Below, piece after piece: positions 4,396 through 34,508 of a DNA stretch of 48,131 nucleotides. Within the stretch, counting starts at the first letter, position 1, and every line of letters begins with the position of its first letter. A program made the translations under genes and the position numbers. This DNA is from a virus: positions 1 through 48,131 of the IMG/VR virus record IMGVR_UViG_3300042389_000787, one strand, 5' to 3'. The notes under the pieces were generated by a model. The model searched no databases. It was not told the origin of the DNA and was given only the letters and a program-made list of their open reading frames with translations.

Positions 4396-4559
4396 ACCCC
4401 GCCAAGCTCCGTCGCGCCATCGCGAACGCGGCCTTCATGGTCGAATGGTGGTCCGGCCGGGTCCTGTCCGATCTGCGGGACGACGCCAAGGCCGCAGCGG
4501 CGCGGAACAAGCTGACGCGCCTGCGCCGCGCCCTGGCCGAACTGGCGGCGCTGTCGTGA
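4392..4559 (+). CDS. Small basic helical protein, 55 aa
   Basis: ATGA overlap with the fusion gene and TGATG overlap with the next one. Rich in Ala, Arg and Leu, predicted to be two helices with two adjacent tryptophans (EWW). No family recognised. Probably translated by coupling within the rightward early operon. Confidence 0.65.
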   Translation: MNPAKLRRAIANAAFMVEWWSGRVLSDLRDDAKAAAARNKLTRLRRALAELAALS

Positions 4560-4636
4560 TGCTGTTCCACCTCATCCTTGCCATCCTGCTGACGACGGGC
4601 CTAGGCCTGATTGTCGTGGCGTGGCTCGCATGGTGA
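4559..4636 (+). CDS. Single-pass membrane peptide, 25 aa
   Basis: Encodes MLFHLILAILLTTGLG followed by LIVVAWLAW, almost entirely one transmembrane helix. Start codon overlaps the stop of the preceding gene (TGATG) and its end overlaps the next start. The size is close to the lower limit for a gene, so it rests on the coupled context and the clean hydrophobic segment. Confidence 0.5.
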   Translation: MLFHLILAILLTTGLGLIVVAWLAW

Positions 4637-4710
4637 ACGCGGTGATCGCCCTTCTCATGGCTGGCGGTTTCGCTGCGGTGCTGATCGCGCTGGTGGGGCT
4701 GTCCCTGTGA
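4630..4710 (+). CDS. Second single-pass membrane peptide, 26 aa
   Basis: MVNAVIALLMAGG then FAAVLIALVGLSL: again a single hydrophobic helix, overlapping the previous peptide gene by seven bases in another frame. A GTG in the next gene overlaps its TGA. Two consecutive peptides of the same kind make chance less likely. Confidence 0.5.
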   Translation: MVNAVIALLMAGGFAAVLIALVGLSL

Positions 4711-4892
4711 ACAGAACGCCGGGTGCCAATTCTTTGGGTTTCTCCCACCCGGCCGGCGCGGCGGGCGAGCGGCTGGGTGCGTCCCGGCGGACCCGTCGCG
4801 TCTTCCATACATGTTTTGCAGGACACGGAACGGCACCCGGGACGCCTGAACCCGGCCCCGTTCCTGTGGCGCGGCGGAGGGTGCGGCAGTGA
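4707..4892 (+). CDS. Hypothetical protein, 61 aa (GTG start)
   Basis: GTG overlaps the preceding TGA (GTGA). The product is rich in Gly, Ala, Pro and Arg without predicted structure. Support is only the coupled junctions at both ends, so this may be a non-coding stretch. Confidence 0.35.
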   Translation: MNRTPGANSLGFSHPAGAAGERLGASRRTRRVFHTCFAGHGTAPGTPEPGPVPVARRRVRQ

Positions 4893-5166: not shown

Positions 5167-7674
5167 ATGTCAAACACACTCGACCATCAAGCCTATCTGG
5201 ATTTCCTACAGTCGAAGTTTCGCTTTTCCACTGACAGCGGCATCATCGTTGATCGTTCCGACGTGAACGTGATGATGAAACCGCACCAAGTCGATATCGT
5301 CCAGTGGGCATGTCGGAAGGGCCGCGCCGCGATATTCGCCGCGTTCGGGCTGGGCAAGTCCATGATGCAACTCGAATGCGTCCGGCTGATCCTCCGCGCG
5401 GAAGGCGGGCGCGCGCTGATCGTCCTGCCGCTGGGTGTCCGGCAAGAGTTTCGCCGTGATGCGGAAAAGCTCGGGCTGACCGTTACGTTCGTGCGGCGGT
5501 CGGATGAGGTAACCGGCGACGGTATATACCTCACGAACTACGAGAGCGTTCGCGACGGCAAGCTGGACCCAAACCTGTTCACCGTCGCGTCCCTCGACGA
5601 AGCGAGCGTTTTGCGGTCCTACGGTTCGCTCACCTATCAATCCTTCCTGACGCTGTTTGCGTCGGTCCGGTATCGGTTCGTGGCCACCGCCACGCCATCC
5701 CCCAACCGATACAAGGAACTGATCCACTACGCCGGCTTTCTCGGCGTGATGGACACCGGGCAGGCCCTGACGCGCTTTTTCCAACGGGACAGCACGAAGG
5801 CGAACAACCTCACGATCTACCCGCACATGGAGCGCGAGTTCTACCTATGGCTCCATTCCTGGGCCGCGTTTGTGCAGCGCCCGTCCGACCTGGGGCACGA
5901 TGACGCCGGCTACGACATGCCGGAAATGGTCATCAACGTGCATGAGGTCCGCGCGCTGGATATCTCAGGCGGCCAGGATCGCGACGGGCAAAACATCATG
6001 TTCAAGGATGCGGCGCTTGGGTTGAAGGAGGCCGCCGCCGAAAAGCGGGAAAGCATCGGTCCGCGCATCGACAAGGCGTTGGAAATCATCAACGCCGCGC
6101 CGGACGATCACTTCATCATCTGGCACCACCTGGAAGCCGAACGGCACGCCATCAAAAAGGCGATCCCCGAGGCGGCTGAAATCTACGGCAGCCTCGATCT
6201 CGACGAACGCGAGCGCCGCACGCTGGCCTTTGCCGACGGGGAAATTCGCATCGTTGCCAGCAAGCCCGAAGTCTCCGGTTCCGGCACGAACTGGCAGCGC
6301 CATTGCCACCGGGCGATCTTCCTCGGGATCAACTATCAGTTCAACGACGTGATCCAGGCCGTCCACCGCATCCGCCGGTATCTGCAAGACAAGCCGGTGA
6401 TCATCGACTTCATCGTGGCGGAAACCGAGCGCGAAGTGTGGCGCACGCTGCAAGCGAAATGGCAGGAACACGAGACGCTCACGGAACAGATGTCCACGCT
6501 CATCCGCGAGCATGGCCTTTCAACCCTCGGCCTGGAGGCTGAATTGACCCGCACCATTGGCGTAACGCGATCCGAAAAAAAGTCCGACCTGTATCATGTG
6601 GCGCACAACGATACGGTCATGGAATGCGATCTGATGGCCGAGAACTCGGTGGACCAGATTATCACGTCCATTCCGTTCGGGAACCACTACGAATACAGCG
6701 CCTCATACAACGACTTTGGCCACAATGACGACAATAAGCGGTTCTTCGCGCAGATGGACTTTTTGACGCCGAACCTCCTCCGCGTCCTACGACCCGGCCG
6801 GGTGGCGTGCATCCATGTCAAGGATCGCATCCGATTTGGCAACGTGACCGGCGATGGCTTCCCGACTTGCGACCCGTTCCATTCCGATTGCATCCAGCAC
6901 TACATCAAGCATGGCCTGCGCTACATGGGCATGATCACGATCGTCACCGACGTTGTTCGCGAGAACAACCAGACATACCGCCTCGGCTGGTCCGAGAATG
7001 CCAAAGATGGGACCAAGATGGGCGTTGGGTCGCCTGAGTATGTCTTGCTGTTCCGCAAACTCCCGACCGATACCAGCCGGGGCTATGCCGATGTCCCGGT
7101 GGCGAAGTCCAAGGAGGATTACACGCGGGCGCGGTGGCAGGTGGATGCCCATGGTTTCTGGCGATCCGGCGGCAACCGGCTGCTGACGGCTGAGGAGTTG
7201 GCCGGATACGGGCCTGACAAGCTGGCAAAGATGTTCCCCGAATGGACGCTACAGCAGGTCTATGACTTCGCGGATCATGTGGCCATTGGTGACGGTCTGG
7301 CCAGCACCGGGCGCCTCCCCGCGACCTTCATGGCCATCGCGCCCGGATCGCACCATCCCGACGTGTGGACCGACGTAAACCGGATGCGAACCCTGAATGG
7401 CGATCAGGCGAACCGGAATTTGCAGATGCACGTTTGCCCGCTGCAATTCGACATCGTTGACCGCCTCATCGAGCGTTACAGCGCCAAGGGCGAAACGGTC
7501 TTCGATCCGTTCGGCGGCCTGTTCACGGTCCCGGTCCGCGCCATGCGCCTTGGCCGGAAGGGGCGCGCGGTCGAATTGAACGCGGAATACTACCGCGATG
7601 GGTGCCGGTATCTGGCCGAGACGGAGCGGGAAATGTCGGTGCCGGATCTGTTCGCGTTGGAGTCGGCGGCATGA
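5167..7674 (+). CDS. SNF2-like helicase fused to DNA methyltransferase
   Basis: 835 residues. N-terminal half: superfamily 2 ATPase with a P-loop-like AAFGLGKS (58-65), DEAS box (144-147), VATATP (172-177) and motif VI QAVHRIRR (397-404). C-terminal half: amino-methyltransferase of the beta order, with the catalytic motif first as TSIPF (500-504, in place of D/S-PP-Y) and the SAM site later as FDPFGG (779-784). Such fusions occur in several phages. Likely methylates adenine or cytosine N4 in phage DNA, perhaps against host restriction. The RBS GGGGAT precedes ATG by nine bases. Target sequence unknown. Confidence 0.88.
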   Translation: MSNTLDHQAYLDFLQSKFRFSTDSGIIVDRSDVNVMMKPHQVDIVQWACRKGRAAIFAAFGLGKSMMQLECVRLILRAEGGRALIVLPLGVRQEFRRDAEKLGLTVTFVRRSDEVTGDGIYLTNYESVRDGKLDPNLFTVASLDEASVLRSYGSLTYQSFLTLFASVRYRFVATATPSPNRYKELIHYAGFLGVMDTGQALTRFFQRDSTKANNLTIYPHMEREFYLWLHSWAAFVQRPSDLGHDDAGYDMPEMVINVHEVRALDISGGQDRDGQNIMFKDAALGLKEAAAEKRESIGPRIDKALEIINAAPDDHFIIWHHLEAERHAIKKAIPEAAEIYGSLDLDERERRTLAFADGEIRIVASKPEVSGSGTNWQRHCHRAIFLGINYQFNDVIQAVHRIRRYLQDKPVIIDFIVAETEREVWRTLQAKWQEHETLTEQMSTLIREHGLSTLGLEAELTRTIGVTRSEKKSDLYHVAHNDTVMECDLMAENSVDQIITSIPFGNHYEYSASYNDFGHNDDNKRFFAQMDFLTPNLLRVLRPGRVACIHVKDRIRFGNVTGDGFPTCDPFHSDCIQHYIKHGLRYMGMITIVTDVVRENNQTYRLGWSENAKDGTKMGVGSPEYVLLFRKLPTDTSRGYADVPVAKSKEDYTRARWQVDAHGFWRSGGNRLLTAEELAGYGPDKLAKMFPEWTLQQVYDFADHVAIGDGLASTGRLPATFMAIAPGSHHPDVWTDVNRMRTLNGDQANRNLQMHVCPLQFDIVDRLIERYSAKGETVFDPFGGLFTVPVRAMRLGRKGRAVELNAEYYRDGCRYLAETEREMSVPDLFALESAA

Positions 7675-28480: not shown

Positions 28481-28653
28481 CCGAACACGGGCCACTCCGG
28501 GAGGCGCTGTATCTCGTCAAGAACGGGGTCCCCTGGATTGAGGCCATGAAGATGGAGCCGGAAGATCGGTTCGCGATGGTGGTCGTTTTCGCGGAGTTCG
28601 ATGGGCTGGTGTTCAACTGGCAAACCGGGACGATGGAAAGGCCGAAGAAATGA
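28462..28653 (+). CDS. Tail assembly chaperone, frameshift extension
   Basis: Open frame without its own good start that continues the chaperone after a -1 slip at 28456-28462. It adds 63 residues (GTVRLLTEHGPLREALYLVKNG..., ending MERPKK), for a total of 176. This is the equivalent of lambda gpGT or P2 E+E'. TGA overlaps the next ATG. Confidence 0.82.
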   Translation, partial: GTVRLLTEHGPLREALYLVKNGVPWIEAMKMEPEDRFAMVVVFAEFDGLVFNWQTGTMERPKK

Positions 28654-29126
28654 GGGACATGACGCTCACCGGGTTCATCGCGCACCTGACCGTTGCCCAG
28701 GCCATGGTGAACACCACGAACCGATCCGCGCTGGATCAGGCCGCGCGCGTCGTGGAACGCGAGGCCAAGGCTATCGTCGGGAAATACCAGACCCGCGCCG
28801 GCCCGTTCGCGGGATGGGCGGAACTGGCGCAGTCGACCAAGAATGACCGTGTGCGGCAGGGCTTCTCCGAGAACGAGCCGGGCCTGCGGTCGGGCGAAAT
28901 GCGGGACAGCATCGGGCGCGCGGTCGGGCGGAATGAGGCCGTGGTCGGGTCGAATAATGAAAAGCTCGTGCGGTTCGAGCTTGGCACGAGCAAGCAGCAG
29001 CCCCGGTCCGTCCTGGGCATCGCGGCGGTCCACAAGGGGCCGGAAGTCGCGCGCATTCTCGGCCAGGGCGTGGTCAAGCACCTTGTCGGGCAGGGCGTGT
29101 TCGGCGGGCGCCTGCCTATCCCGTGA
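28650..29126 (+). CDS. Tail completion protein, HK97 gp10-like (probable)
   Basis: 158 residues. An N-terminal helix (LDQAARVVEREAKAIVG) is followed by GPFAGWAELAQSTKNDR and LRSGEMRDSI, a pattern shared by gp10/virion morphogenesis families, and by beta strands (VVGSNNEKLVRFELGTSKQQPRS). ATGA overlap with the chaperone extension. Lies before an antisense gene and the tape measure. Confidence 0.7.
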   Translation: MRDMTLTGFIAHLTVAQAMVNTTNRSALDQAARVVEREAKAIVGKYQTRAGPFAGWAELAQSTKNDRVRQGFSENEPGLRSGEMRDSIGRAVGRNEAVVGSNNEKLVRFELGTSKQQPRSVLGIAAVHKGPEVARILGQGVVKHLVGQGVFGGRLPIP

Positions 29127-29346
29127 ACAGGCCCACGACGATCAGGACCACGATCCCGATGGGGATCATCAGGAACGGCGACAGGCCCACAAGGGCGCCG
29201 ATGATGAGGCGCTGTTTCACCGTCAGGGATCTGATGCGGGACCGGAAGCCCGGCGGGTGAAGGTCGATGACGCGGGCGTGTCGCGCGCGCCATGCGGGGG
29301 TTCCGCCGTCGTCTTGGAAGTCAAGGCGGGGGTCTAGCGGTGGCAT
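29116..29346 (-). CDS. Antisense membrane protein (moron candidate), 76 aa
   Basis: Minus-strand gene in an otherwise rightward tail operon. The last ~30 residues form a transmembrane helix (LIIGALVGLSPFLMIPIGIV, then VLIVVGLFTG) after a soluble, Arg-rich N-terminal part. An extended -10 promoter ends seven bases before the ATG, so the message is probably leaderless. The plus strand here has no gene between 29127 and 29374. Independent promoter and orientation suggest a gene expressed in the lysogen, such as a superinfection exclusion factor; that is inference. Confidence 0.68.
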   Translation of the reverse strand: MPPLDPRLDFQDDGGTPAWRARHARVIDLHPPGFRSRIRSLTVKQRLIIGALVGLSPFLMIPIGIVVLIVVGLFTG

Positions 29347-29352
29347 CTGGAC

Positions 29353-29361
29353 AGTATAGCA
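29353..29361 (-). promoter_or_regulatory. Extended -10 promoter of antisense gene
   Basis: TGCTATACT on the minus strand: TG, one base, then TATACT with five of six matches to the -10 consensus. No good -35 box, which extended -10 promoters do not need. The expected start, seven bases on, is the A of the ATG at 29346. Confidence 0.6.
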
Positions 29362-29374
29362 TGGGGATGGGCCG

Positions 29375-31231
29375 GTGATCGACGTATTCCGCGTGGGCGT
29401 CCACATTGGGATGACCACGAACAGCACCCAGGTCCTGGCCGCCATGCTGCGCCAGTTGACCGGCGTTCAGACATCCCAGAAGGCCATCAATCAGAACTTC
29501 AAGATGATGGCGACGCTCGCGGCCGGGGCCATGGCCGCGATCGGCGGCGTGACCGCGCTCAAGGGGCTGTGGTCGATCGTCGAGGCGTCGCGGAAGCTGA
29601 ATGACGAACTGACGAAGACCAAGAGCCTGGGCGGGGAGTTTGAGAAGACCCTGGCCACGACGCGGGCGGTTGCCTTCACCACGGCGGCGGATGTCAAGAC
29701 GTTCGCCCCCTCGGCTGTGGTTCGGGCGCAGCGTGAACTCGCGACCCAGGTCCCGAACCAGGAGCAGGCCAACGCGCTGCTGCCCTACATCCTGAAAGCC
29801 GCCACGGTCACGTCTCAGGTCACCGGCGAAAAGCCGGAAGACATGATCCAGAACATGGCCAAGATACTGGACATCCGGGGGCAAATCTTCTCGGAGGGGC
29901 CGGACGGCAAGAAGTTCATCGACCCGGCGAAGTTTATGCCGGAACTGGAAATGATGTCCGCTTCACTGCGGATGTATGCCGGGATCATCTCGTCCAAGGG
30001 CATGTTGGCGGCCGCGATGCAGGCCGCCGTTCCCGCCAAGGCCATGACCGGCCCGGCGTTCTACGCGGACCTGATGGAAGCCGCATCGGCCAGCAGCCCG
30101 CACCGCGTCGGCACCGCGACGACCTCGTTGTTCAGCCAGCTTATCGGCGGCACCATGCCGCTTCATGTCGCGCACGAGATGCAGCGCATGGGGCTGATGA
30201 AGGAAGGCGAATGGTCCACCGGCCGGGGTGGGCGCGTCTTGCTCGGCCCCGAGGTGAGCGAGCGGTTCGGCAAGGCCATGAAAAGCCCGATCGAGTTCAT
30301 CACGGGCGAATTGAACGACCTGATGACCAAGAAGGGCATGAACGACGACCAGAAGCTGCTTGAGGTGTTCCGGCTGTTCGGCCGGCAGACCACGCAGCGG
30401 CTTGTCGCGGAGGCCCTGTCGTCCGAACCGCAGTATGCCCGGTCGCGCGGCATCTTCTCTGGCGTCAAGCCTGTCGGCGAAGCGTGGCAGATGCTGGAGC
30501 GGGAGAACCTGAACTTCAACATCACCGGGTTCACATCCGCGTGGCAGGGGTTCATCGAGGCCCTTGGCGATGCGGGCGTGCCCACGGCGATCTCCATCCT
30601 CCAAAGCATGACCGGCGCCCTGCACGAACTGACGCGGCTGATCGAGGCGCACCCGAACGTCGCGGCGGGCATCCTCGGGGTGGCGGGCGGCTTTGCTGCC
30701 ATGGCCGCGATCGGTGGGGCAATCACGGTCCTGACCATGGGCCTGCACGGTCTGGCCGTGCCGCTGTCCGCGCTGGCCGGGATCACCGGCTTGACGGCGC
30801 TTGGGACTGGCCTCGGCCTTGTCGCCACGGGGCTTGCCAGCCTGATCGCGCCCGTCTCCGCAATCCTCGGCCTGCTCAAGATCGGATCGGACGCGGAAAC
30901 TCCGGAGAACCGCGCGAAGATCGACCAATACAAGCGGTCCCTACTTCCCAGGCCGCAGGGCCTGCCGAACGATGGCTATGACGCCATGGGCCGGCCGATC
31001 GCCCCCGCCGCGCCCCCGCCCGCGCCGACAGGCCCGAGCGGGATGCTCGGCCGGATCAGCTACGGCGGCGGCGACACCCCCCGCATCGCTGGCGATGTCT
31101 ATCTCGACGGCCAGAAGGTCGGACAGTGGATGGCGAAGTGGATGGCCGGTCAGACCAGCCGCCCCGCCGCAGGGCCAAGCGCGGTCGATACCCGCATGAC
31201 GTTCGTTCCGCCCGGGGGCGCGTTCGCATGA
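29375..31231 (+). CDS. Tail tape measure protein
   Basis: 618 residues from GTG 29375. Long helical N-terminal part (VLAAMLRQLTGVQTSQKAINQ), conserved TMP-like region, then hydrophobic Gly/Ala segments (about 425-515: AAGILGVAGGFAAMAAIGGAI, ALAGITGLTALGTGLGLVAT) typical of tape measures. By the usual rule of ~0.15 nm per residue the tail would be about 90 nm, short for a myovirus. C-terminus is Pro-rich and ends with a small domain. Confidence 0.88.
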   Translation: MIDVFRVGVHIGMTTNSTQVLAAMLRQLTGVQTSQKAINQNFKMMATLAAGAMAAIGGVTALKGLWSIVEASRKLNDELTKTKSLGGEFEKTLATTRAVAFTTAADVKTFAPSAVVRAQRELATQVPNQEQANALLPYILKAATVTSQVTGEKPEDMIQNMAKILDIRGQIFSEGPDGKKFIDPAKFMPELEMMSASLRMYAGIISSKGMLAAAMQAAVPAKAMTGPAFYADLMEAASASSPHRVGTATTSLFSQLIGGTMPLHVAHEMQRMGLMKEGEWSTGRGGRVLLGPEVSERFGKAMKSPIEFITGELNDLMTKKGMNDDQKLLEVFRLFGRQTTQRLVAEALSSEPQYARSRGIFSGVKPVGEAWQMLERENLNFNITGFTSAWQGFIEALGDAGVPTAISILQSMTGALHELTRLIEAHPNVAAGILGVAGGFAAMAAIGGAITVLTMGLHGLAVPLSALAGITGLTALGTGLGLVATGLASLIAPVSAILGLLKIGSDAETPENRAKIDQYKRSLLPRPQGLPNDGYDAMGRPIAPAAPPPAPTGPSGMLGRISYGGGDTPRIAGDVYLDGQKVGQWMAKWMAGQTSRPAAGPSAVDTRMTFVPPGGAFA

Positions 31232-32255: not shown

Positions 32256-33360
32256 CCCGGACCGCCTGCCCTACGCGACCCGGCCCCGGCTCCGGGCGCT
32301 GGCGGACGGGGTGGAAATTCCAGGCGCGCTCTCGACCTCCATCACCAGCACGAACAACTATCACGCCGATCGGTTCCAGATGCGGTTCGCCCCGCCGCCC
32401 GATCAGAAGGGGGCCGGGTCCTGGGCGTGGTGGGCATCGCAAACGGGCCTGCTGCTGGACATCCAGATCGGGGAGGCGCCGACCGGATCGGCTGACCTGA
32501 CCTGGAAGTCGATCCTGCTCGGACAGGTGGACACGATCGAAGCCGACAGGACCGGATATCAGATCAATGTGGACGGGCGCGACCTGACGGCGCGGCTGAT
32601 CGACAATAAGATTGAGGCCGCCTACCCAAACAAGACATCTTCCGAGATCGTCATAGAACTCGCGACGGCGGCCGGGCTGCTGTATCGCGTGGCGAAAACC
32701 ACCACGCTCGTTGGCAGGTTCTACGACGCCGAACATTCCTACATCTCGCAGGATCAGTTCAGCCGCCCGCGTCCCATGTGGGACCTGATCACGATGCTGG
32801 CGCGGTATGAGGATTTCGACGCGTTCGTTGAGCGGGACAAGCTCTATTTCCAGCCGCGCACGCCGCCCGATGCCACGCCGTATGTCGTGCGACACCAGAT
32901 CGACCCGCAGGGACGGCAGACCGGGAACGCCATGTCGTTGCAGACCAGCCGCGCCCTGACGATCGCGAAGGGGATCAAGGTTGTCGTGAAGTCCTGGCAC
33001 TCGGGACAGAAGCGCGCGTTCATCAGGTCATCGCCGGGCGGGCGGCAATCGTCCGTCTCGGAAAAGCCGGGGCAGCAACAATACGTGTTCATCCGGCCCA
33101 ATCTGACCGAGGACCAAGCACAGCGCCTCGCGGATCATCTGCGGCAGGAAATCAGCCAACAGGAACGGACGATCGCGGGGACGCTGCCCGGCGACACGAT
33201 CCTGACGCCCCGCGTGATGATGCGTCTGGACGGGACCGGGACCGAGTTTGATCGCGTCTACTACCCGGATCAGGTGACCCGGATCGTGGACGCGGAACAG
33301 GGGTATGTCATGGACTTCACGGCCAAGAGCCTGCCCCCGGCGGCGGAGACGACGGCATGA
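32242..33360 (+). CDS. Baseplate hub protein, gpD-like
   Basis: 372 residues from TTG 32242, preceded by a strong GGGAGGCGGG site within the gpX-like gene. Matches phage late control D/gp27-like hubs: YHADRFQMRFAPP, VDGRDLTARLIDNKIE, and a C-terminal VTRIVDAEQGYVMDFTAKS. Binds the spike and closes the tube end. Confidence 0.85.
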   Translation: MPLNDPDRLPYATRPRLRALADGVEIPGALSTSITSTNNYHADRFQMRFAPPPDQKGAGSWAWWASQTGLLLDIQIGEAPTGSADLTWKSILLGQVDTIEADRTGYQINVDGRDLTARLIDNKIEAAYPNKTSSEIVIELATAAGLLYRVAKTTTLVGRFYDAEHSYISQDQFSRPRPMWDLITMLARYEDFDAFVERDKLYFQPRTPPDATPYVVRHQIDPQGRQTGNAMSLQTSRALTIAKGIKVVVKSWHSGQKRAFIRSSPGGRQSSVSEKPGQQQYVFIRPNLTEDQAQRLADHLRQEISQQERTIAGTLPGDTILTPRVMMRLDGTGTEFDRVYYPDQVTRIVDAEQGYVMDFTAKSLPPAAETTA

Positions 33361-33385
33361 GATACCCCCGATACCGCGTCGACGA

Positions 33386-33670
33386 TTATTCGGCCGCCGA
33401 TGGCGTCTGGGCCTCAACTGTTCTGCCTGCCCGCTTGGTGCGAAACGTCGCTGGCGGCAGTGAAGCAAGGTGCGCCCGGAGGCTATCCATCAAAATCAAG
33501 GTGCGGGCGCCAGCCTTCACCGCACGAATGTCCCCCGCCGCCAACTGTCGATAAATCTCGCTACGGCTCAGGCCGGAAATGATCGTTGCATCCGGGATCG
33601 ACACGGCCAGCCGTTCAACCTCCGGGTCGGCTCCGCTCAGGTTGCGTCGATCTCTGTTGTTTAAGGTCAT
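33386..33670 (-). CDS. AlpA/Xis-like HTH protein, antisense in baseplate operon
   Basis: 94 residues (ATG 33670; GTG codons just upstream are possible). The centre, VSIPDATIISGLSRSEIYRQLAAGDIRAVKAG ARTLI-like, fits the winged helix of excisionase/AlpA proteins: first helix, recognition helix SRSEIYRQL, then the 'wing' IRAVKAGAR. It sits between hub and spike genes in the opposite direction, next to inverted and direct repeats at 33752-33846. No integrase is in the window, so it may be a regulator rather than a real excisionase. Confidence 0.7.
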   Translation of the reverse strand: MTLNNRDRRNLSGADPEVERLAVSIPDATIISGLSRSEIYRQLAAGDIRAVKAGARTLILMDSLRAHLASLPPATFRTKRAGRTVEAQTPSAAE

Positions 33671-33751
33671 CACTATCACCCGCGATACGCCCCACGGGAT
33701 TGCCGGGCGTGTCTACACTCTTTCTACAGCCAAACATTCGCGTTTGTCTGC

Positions 33752-33775
33752 CCCAAACCTCGGCCGAAGTTTGGG
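33752..33775. repeat. 24-bp near-palindrome
   Basis: Arms CCCAAAC and GTTTGGG enclose the palindrome TCGGCCGA; eleven of twelve base pairs match. Could be an operator, a recombination site or a two-way terminator. Confidence 0.6.
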
Positions 33776-33788
33776 CTTGACACATCGG

Positions 33789-33846
33789 CATGGAACTTCC
33801 CGACCGCCGAAAGTTCCATGTCACTTTCCGCCGGTCGAAAGTTCCA
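33789..33846. repeat. Cluster of GGAACTTTC-like half-sites
   Basis: CATGGAACTT (33789-33798) is the reverse complement of AAGTTCCATG (33811-33820). ACTTTC (33823-33828) pairs with GAAAGT (33837-33842). CGAAAGTTCCA occurs twice, 28 bp apart. Together four half-sites in 58 bp, like a cooperative protein-binding region. Confidence 0.65.
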
Positions 33847-33887
33847 ATTGACATGCGCGCCCGCACCACCTGCGAAAGTCATGACCT

Positions 33888-34508
33888 ATGAGCATGGACC
33901 ACTTCCTGAACGCGATGAAATCGCAGACCGGGAACCAGATCGACGCGCGCGGGCAATTCAAGATCGGCGTCGTGAAGTCGGTTCATGCGGAAGCCTACAC
34001 CGTGAAGTGTGAAATCCAGCCGGACGGCGTGATGAGCGGGTGGCTCCCGGTGTTCTCCATGTGGCTCGGGAACGGGTGGGGCATGGCCTGCCTTCCGCCT
34101 CCTGGCACGCAAGTCCTGATCGCGCCGCTGAACGGCGACATGGAAAACGGGATCGTCATGGGTGCGCTGTATTCCTCGGCCGATATCCCGCCCGGCCCGG
34201 CCCGCGTGGGGGAGTTTCTGTTGGTCCATTCGACCGGGACCTTCCTGCGCCTGGGCAACGACGGCTCGGTTCAAGCCAAGGCCGAGGCGTTCGTGCTTGA
34301 GGGCGATCTCTACCTGAACGGCAAGCTACGCGTGGACGGCGACGCGCAGTTCACCCAGGACGTGCGGGTTGACCAGGACATCACGGCGGGCGGGCCGATC
34401 CTACCCAGCACGCCCCCGCCGTCGCCGTTCCCGATCACACCCGCCGACCCGCCTGAGCCGGCCGAACCGCCCACCCTGCCGTATCCACCTGGGACGCCAA
34501 TCTCATGA
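33888..34508 (+). CDS. Baseplate spike, gpV-like
   Basis: 206 residues. OB-fold domain of phage base V type (KIGVVKSVHAEAYTVKCEIQPDG, WLPVFSMWLGNGWGM, PPGTQVLIAPLNGD), then a beta-helical part (VQAKAEAFVLEGDLYLNGKLRVDGDAQFTQ) and a Pro-rich tail. The trimeric needle that pierces the outer membrane. ATG 33888 chosen; a second ATG two codons later is possible. Confidence 0.85.
   Translation: MSMDHFLNAMKSQTGNQIDARGQFKIGVVKSVHAEAYTVKCEIQPDGVMSGWLPVFSMWLGNGWGMACLPPPGTQVLIAPLNGDMENGIVMGALYSSADIPPGPARVGEFLLVHSTGTFLRLGNDGSVQAKAEAFVLEGDLYLNGKLRVDGDAQFTQDVRVDQDITAGGPILPSTPPPSPFPITPADPPEPAEPPTLPYPPGTPIS

Follow-up and report, generated by a model that had tools for sequence, protein, structure and literature searches.

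A small gene on the minus strand, just before the tape measure protein (TMP) gene, interrupts the late operon of a probably temperate Acetobacteraceae phage in the window (the whole 48,131-base stretch of DNA that was analysed). Our best explanation, with a probability of roughly 0.45, is that this gene is a moron expressed in lysogeny, whose product would sit in the inner membrane and exclude related superinfecting phages. That the gene is a moron in a noncontiguous operon is in itself highly probable from its layout and conservation, while interference with the DNA entry of related superinfecting phages, plausibly at the tape measure or inner membrane step, is drawn from analogy and is put forward tentatively.

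The antisense gene, its predicted product and its promoter motif

The sequence-only reading had described an antisense gene for a 76-residue membrane-type protein just before the tape measure; the open reading frame (ORF), hydropathy, nine homologues and purifying selection all confirm it. The features at this site are:

28650..29126 (+): tail-completion/neck-like gene, 158 aa (phrog_222 at E 0.008 only; 49-55% identical in L002 and L004)
28962..28982 (-): weak terminator-like hairpin (T-rich tail) beyond the 3' end of the antisense gene, not above chance
29116..29346 (-): gene for the 76-aa predicted membrane protein, DDGGTPxWR family, antisense to the late operon
29119..29220 (-): codons of the predicted C-terminal membrane helix, residues 43-76 (hydropathy and AlphaFold2; coordinates derived from the ORF)
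29287..29313 (-): codons of the conserved motif DDGGTPAWR, residues 12-20 (coordinates derived from the ORF)
29353..29361 (-): extended -10 motif TGCTATACT, 6 bases before the ATG (motif and spacing the same in L204, L205 and L206)
29375..31231 (+): TMP gene (phrog_28, E 2.5e-16), divergent from the antisense gene

The minus-strand ORF runs from an ATG at 29346 to a stop at 29116 (76 aa) and is overlapped by the end of the neck-like gene over 11 bp. A longer mechanical ORF in the same frame starts at 29445 (109 aa); the ATG at 29346 is favoured because the homologue in locus L185 starts at the matching MPPLDPR, the two N-termini being alike (MPPLDPRTDF in L185, MPPLDPRLDF in the window). The C-terminus is hydrophobic, with a Kyte-Doolittle mean of 2.65 for the best stretch of 19 residues, and the AlphaFold2 model of the 76-aa protein (five sequences, mean pLDDT 74, pTM 0.31; only the helix is informative) has a poorly ordered N-terminus and one helix at residues 43-75 (block pLDDT 87-94). 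From this helix and the hydropathy value, the protein is predicted to be placed in the membrane.

The gene's own extended -10 box, also proposed in the sequence-only reading, was confirmed as a motif 6 bases before the ATG. TGNTATAMT occurs once in the window (0.15 expected from shuffles), as does TATAMT-N5-7-ATG (0.09 expected), and of the 1554 ATG codons of the window, 0.13% are preceded within 40 bases by an extended -10 that is as good. A general sigma-70 scanner found no -35/-10 pair at 27-32 kb, so the antisense promoter was called from the extended -10 by itself. The arrangement TGCTATACT-N6-ATG is identical in L204, L205 and L206, whose proteins are only ~30% identical to that of the window; TGCTATACT also overlaps the upstream region of the TMP gene and may be conserved for more reasons than one. 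L004 carries a weaker extended -10 match than the window, and none of similar quality stands close to the ATG in L021, L185, L208 or L209. At the six better-scoring loci, a -10 match just as good precedes 0.1-0.9% of all ATGs. By motif, an own promoter as expected of a phage moron is thus seen in the window, L002 and L204-L206. The claim of a leaderless message fared less evenly: it fits the window and the L204-L206 clade but not L002, where the -10 (TGTTATAGT) stands 22 bases before the ATG with a Shine-Dalgarno-like stretch between them. No terminator hairpin of the antisense gene was found in the seven relatives checked.

Homologues and the neck-TMP junction

The family comprises ten intact members (the window gene and nine homologues, 27-48% identity), all from Acetobacteraceae genomes or phage contigs/prophages. 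The motif D[DN]GG[TP]xxWR and a hydrophobic C-terminus are present in all ten; nine have the form DDGGTxxWR, and L209 has DNGGPPGWR. The homologues reached us by different routes: i) those of L002 and L021 came from a scan of viral contigs with the window protein and then with the alignment; ii) the L004 locus was reached through the sheath, the gene being at the matching place; iii) the L185 locus was reached through the tape measure, and its gene matched a profile built without it at E 2.8e-8; iv) motif-bearing intact copies were found in five of 397 Acetobacteraceae genomes (G153, G200, G232, G261 and G345). In the identity comparison, L204, L205 and L206 correspond to L191, L195 and L194; L190 and L208 likewise denote one copy. 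In the one clade close enough for the estimate, dN/dS of the antisense gene was 0.23-0.25 in three pairs (versus 0.06-0.12 for the neighbouring TMP), and a value of about 0.24 indicates purifying selection on the antisense protein. The outcome that the sequence-only reading had named as fatal to it, a frame not conserved among relatives, did not come true, given nine intact homologues and low dN/dS.

Several candidates were set aside. Nine of the 397 genomes had given matches, and four of these (G023, G031, G130 and G208) lacked the motif, as did the G134 candidate; G345:C167, a broken copy with stops, was excluded from the members. In genome G345, a second, broken family copy with internal stops lies in L207 at about 4473-4811 (+), near transposase-like frames.

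Scans with single proteins yielded few relatives: one in a first scan and only the same contig in another, and TMP alone gave none; the first genome-contig scan with A2 gave no relatives; tblastn against 50,697 phage records gave no match for P0001, the L195 copy, the L190/L208 copy or TMP; and a class-wide genome search at E 1e-3 gave 0/385 (a weak negative, with at most 13 candidates scored per genome among the matches listed). Pfam, PHROG, NCBIfam and PADLOC gave no credible match to the family: weak PHROG, NCBIfam and Pfam matches, near or above E 0.01 and mostly over the hydrophobic part, were set aside, and PADLOC matched none of the ten proteins. The motif strings DDGGTPAWR/GWR/MWR did not occur in the open-licence literature searched.

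In eight of the ten members (window, L002, L004, L021, L185, L204, L205 and L206) the gene is antisense between the neck/tail-completion gene and TMP. It fills this gap in the window, L002, L004 and L021; in L204-L206 it stands directly at the TMP start and is separated from the neck gene by about 5-8 kb of cargo; in L185 it adjoins the neck gene, and between it and TMP lie about 2.7 kb, of which an antisense HicB/HicA pair comes first. The layout of a noncontiguous operon, a minus-strand gene between two plus-strand tail genes, thus recurs in relatives, with a promoter seen by motif. The two exceptions are L209, an orphan copy in the chromosome 131 bp from a tRNA-Lys gene, and L208, where the gene follows a late gene in sense orientation and the surrounding region is prophage-like and includes a resolvase-type recombinase; the sense orientation in L208 means that the antisense, own-promoter design is not universal in the family.

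We surveyed the junction in the 186 sources that remained when 24 duplicates or sub-loci were removed from the 209 loci and the window. Of these sources, 76 had a neck match at E 1e-3; three of them (L014, L041 and L049) were dropped for want of a TMP start, leaving 73 loci. The neck-TMP gap was at most 83 bp in 62 of the 73 and at least 248 bp in the other 11. All 11 long gaps hold antisense genes: eight a DDGGTPxWR-family gene, and three other antisense ORFs, which encode a hydrophobic protein of 106 aa in L143, a phrog_16979 protein of 155 aa in L013 and, in L065, a product of 148 aa whose N-terminus is signal-like (the ORFs of L143 and L065 being less secure because they have no supporting homologue). 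Judged from these gaps, the neck-TMP junction is a moron hotspot. Presence and absence in relatives, a check that the sequence-only reading had proposed, came out as expected for a moron: the gene is in eight of the 73 loci and missing at the same place in relatives, among them L170 and L186, which share the TMP class and have empty junctions (16 and -1 bp). Since L170 and L186 have the same tail genes without the antisense gene, the gene appears dispensable for building the particle. With the conserved frame, the well-placed promoter motif and the other antisense cargo at the junction, the moron reading is well supported.

The gene was present in eight of ten loci with a D[VI][FY]-type TMP versus 0 of 63 others (Fisher 3e-9, which overstates the link because the loci are not independent, and because it was the gene itself that led to L002, L021 and L204-L206). 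L204-L206 form one clade, and near-duplicates and short TMPs are common among the sheath relatives. Among the loci found through TMP alone, the gene was present in three of five.

The islands at this junction carry further genes. In the antisense island of L185 (1092-2152 (-)), the family gene is joined by a HicB-like and a HicA-like gene of the toxin-antitoxin type, each scoring above its Pfam cut-off. Antirepressor-type domains (Rha, AntA and P22_AR_N) are encoded on the late strand in L204 (8677-9462), L205 (3987-4856) and L206 (6572-7435), three different domains in neck-TMP islands, each lying between the antisense gene and the neck gene. The family phrog_16979 (unknown function) occurs in islands of two phages, L013 (9132-9599 (-)) and L205 (5567-6025 (+)).

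Phage and host context

The window phage is contractile-tailed, with P22-type coat protein, terminase, DnaB, sheath, baseplate and tape measure genes; at 3.2-3.9 kb it encodes two regulators, one a CI-like repressor and the other Cro-like. Its sheath relatives are overwhelmingly from Acetobacteraceae/Rhodospirillales genomes or MAGs; phiKX1 and phiKX2, two temperate Komagataeibacter phages, are also among them. It is probably a temperate Acetobacteraceae myophage; temperance is likely rather than proven, as no PF00589 tyrosine integrase was found in the window.

Other observations concern the same genomes. A second antisense tail-operon ORF of the window (33386-33679 (-), 97 aa, within the 33360-33888 gap) is HTH_17/excisionase-like below the Pfam cut-off, and has no relative in any of the compared loci. 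In phiKX1 and phiKX2, an annotated antisense 47-aa gene lies between sheath and tube (L022 9801-9944 (-), same place in L023), in a gap that may be a further site for antisense cargo within this operon. At many Acetobacteraceae sheath-gene loci the tape measure is only about 250-400 aa, and L054 has no evident neck or TMP gene; all these loci are perhaps domesticated particles. After the tail chaperone of the window, a short second-frame ORF (28481-28653 (+), around 'LYLVKNGVPW'), with look-alikes in L014, L054, L170, L185 and L186, may be expressed by frameshifting, as happens in other tail chaperones. Finally, an ORF of the window at 5167-7674 (+) encodes 835 aa, with an N6_N4 methylase domain at the C-terminus of the product and a weak match to SNF2/helicase at its N-terminus.

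Proposed role, alternatives and meaning

Being small, antisense, provided with its own motif, dispensable, located in a cargo hotspot and carried by a probably temperate phage, the gene has the profile of a noncontiguous-operon moron. The nearest known layouts are likened to it here by description, not by sequence, from the available parts of the cited sources. Tab (tail assembly blocker) of Pseudomonas phage JBD26, which targets TMP, is an 83-residue, prophage-expressed moron and, like the window gene with its putative promoter, is small, on the minus strand inside the late operon and equipped with a promoter of its own; it differs in lying between terminase genes rather than beside TMP, and in being soluble when expressed alone whereas the window protein has a predicted membrane helix (PMC10884400). 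The phi80 immune gene Tai likewise opposes late transcription in a noncontiguous operon: it faces the Q-driven late operon, is on in the lysogen, and its product falls once Q is expressed; unlike the window gene, it has a sense-strand counter-defence gene (anti-Tai), and it acts on tail assembly (PMC11364771). In S. aureus 80alpha, the antisense layout turns Tha immunity off on induction (PMC11087260, available part). Tab and Tai are tail-assembly blockers and, in the portions available, are not presented as membrane proteins, in contrast to the predicted product of the window gene. The window junction has no anti-Tab-like partner gene, and in the window, L002, L004 and L021 the stretch from the neck gene to TMP holds no further sense-strand gene that might serve as counter-defence; the window gene is therefore not classed as a Tab/Tai-type pair. 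Exclusion at the membrane would need no antidote during assembly, which fits this absence and proves nothing.

The predicted membrane product and the site next to TMP direct attention rather to injection, by analogy with HK97 gp15, TP-J34 Ltp and SNIPE. According to the available parts of the reports, exclusion by gp15 and Ltp is linked to tail tube/tape measure proteins (PMC10883804), and membrane-bound SNIPE associates with tape measure proteins (PMC13190303). Like the window protein, gp15 is a predicted inner-membrane moron product; it belongs to an E. coli phage with a long non-contractile tail, unlike the window phage, and is again likened by description, not sequence (PMC10883804, available part).

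The exclusion moron could work as follows: i) on the dormant prophage, host RNA polymerase would recognise TGCTATACT, as its conserved sequence and spacing suggest, and produce a leaderless or nearly leaderless transcript; ii) the message would be translated into a single-pass inner-membrane protein; iii) by the positive-inside rule, the arginine/lysine-rich stretch before the helix would keep the N-terminus cytoplasmic, and the D[DN]GG[TP]xxWR segment would then face the cytoplasm; iv) the protein might hinder the DNA entry of related superinfecting phages, by analogy plausibly at the tape measure or inner membrane; and v) upon induction, late transcription would cross the gene in antisense and shut it down, as with Tai and Tha.

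The same moron might instead serve another lysogenic trait, by changing the host envelope or stress response or by acting with neighbouring accessory genes. We regard this as rather unlikely but worth weighing, since the hotspot also carries HicAB and regulators and its cargo is thus not all for exclusion; the orphan copy of L209 near a chromosomal tRNA-Lys gene is compatible with a benefit to the host, and PADLOC places the family in no defence family. Against it, the restriction of the gene to one TMP class among the surveyed loci (8/10 versus 0/63) hints at a phage-specific target, a pattern that shared ancestry or ascertainment could mimic. A gene of the lytic cycle, such as a small holin/antiholin-like or assembly-stage membrane protein on the other strand, would agree with the small size, the predicted C-terminal helix and the sense copy behind a late gene in L208; it is improbable, for the gene opposes late transcription in eight of ten loci, four of those eight have a strong extended -10 at leaderless spacing, and L170 and L186 share the tail genes yet lack it.

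Very improbable is an active antisense RNA in place of a protein, even though the precedent is close: in Salmonella prophage BTP1, the transcript STnc6030, antisense in late genes, gives superinfection exclusion of BTP1 (PMC7067206, available part), and a transcript of the window gene would run into antisense of the neck gene. STnc6030 has no ORF over 60 aa and is treated as RNA-acting in the available text (PMC7067206), whereas the window gene encodes a protein conserved among homologues only 27-48% identical, with dN/dS of about 0.24, and is also retained in L208 and L209, where no tail gene lies opposite it. A chance frame with a chance -10 can practically be dismissed: the GC-rich window does yield 339 ORFs of at least 60 aa, but the conserved frame already refutes it, and the nine intact homologues, the low dN/dS and the conservation of start, position and promoter motif all speak against it.

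Within the exclusion reading, a more specific version, which we consider doubtful, would make the D[DN]GG[TP]xxWR proteins a tape-measure-matched immunity family, each beside the TMP that it recognises. Late transcription would silence the guard with no antidote gene, and the divergent pair with its shared start region would let recombination move lock and key together.

The open-licence literature searched held nothing joining at least three of tape measure, superinfection exclusion, opposite strand and small membrane protein, and nothing on an Acetobacteraceae prophage with a contractile tail sheath. As far as these searches go, the antisense late-operon arrangement is already known, and the protein family, the predicted membrane product and the putative leaderless start beside TMP are new. 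The small set of immunity-type genes nested antisense in late operons gains an unnamed family with a predicted membrane product and a putative leaderless extended -10 start, and the neck-tape measure junction of Acetobacteraceae myophages becomes a place to seek further accessory genes. If the gene does guard against phages with a matching TMP, self/non-self recognition at DNA injection would become testable with natural gene/TMP pairs and empty-site controls.
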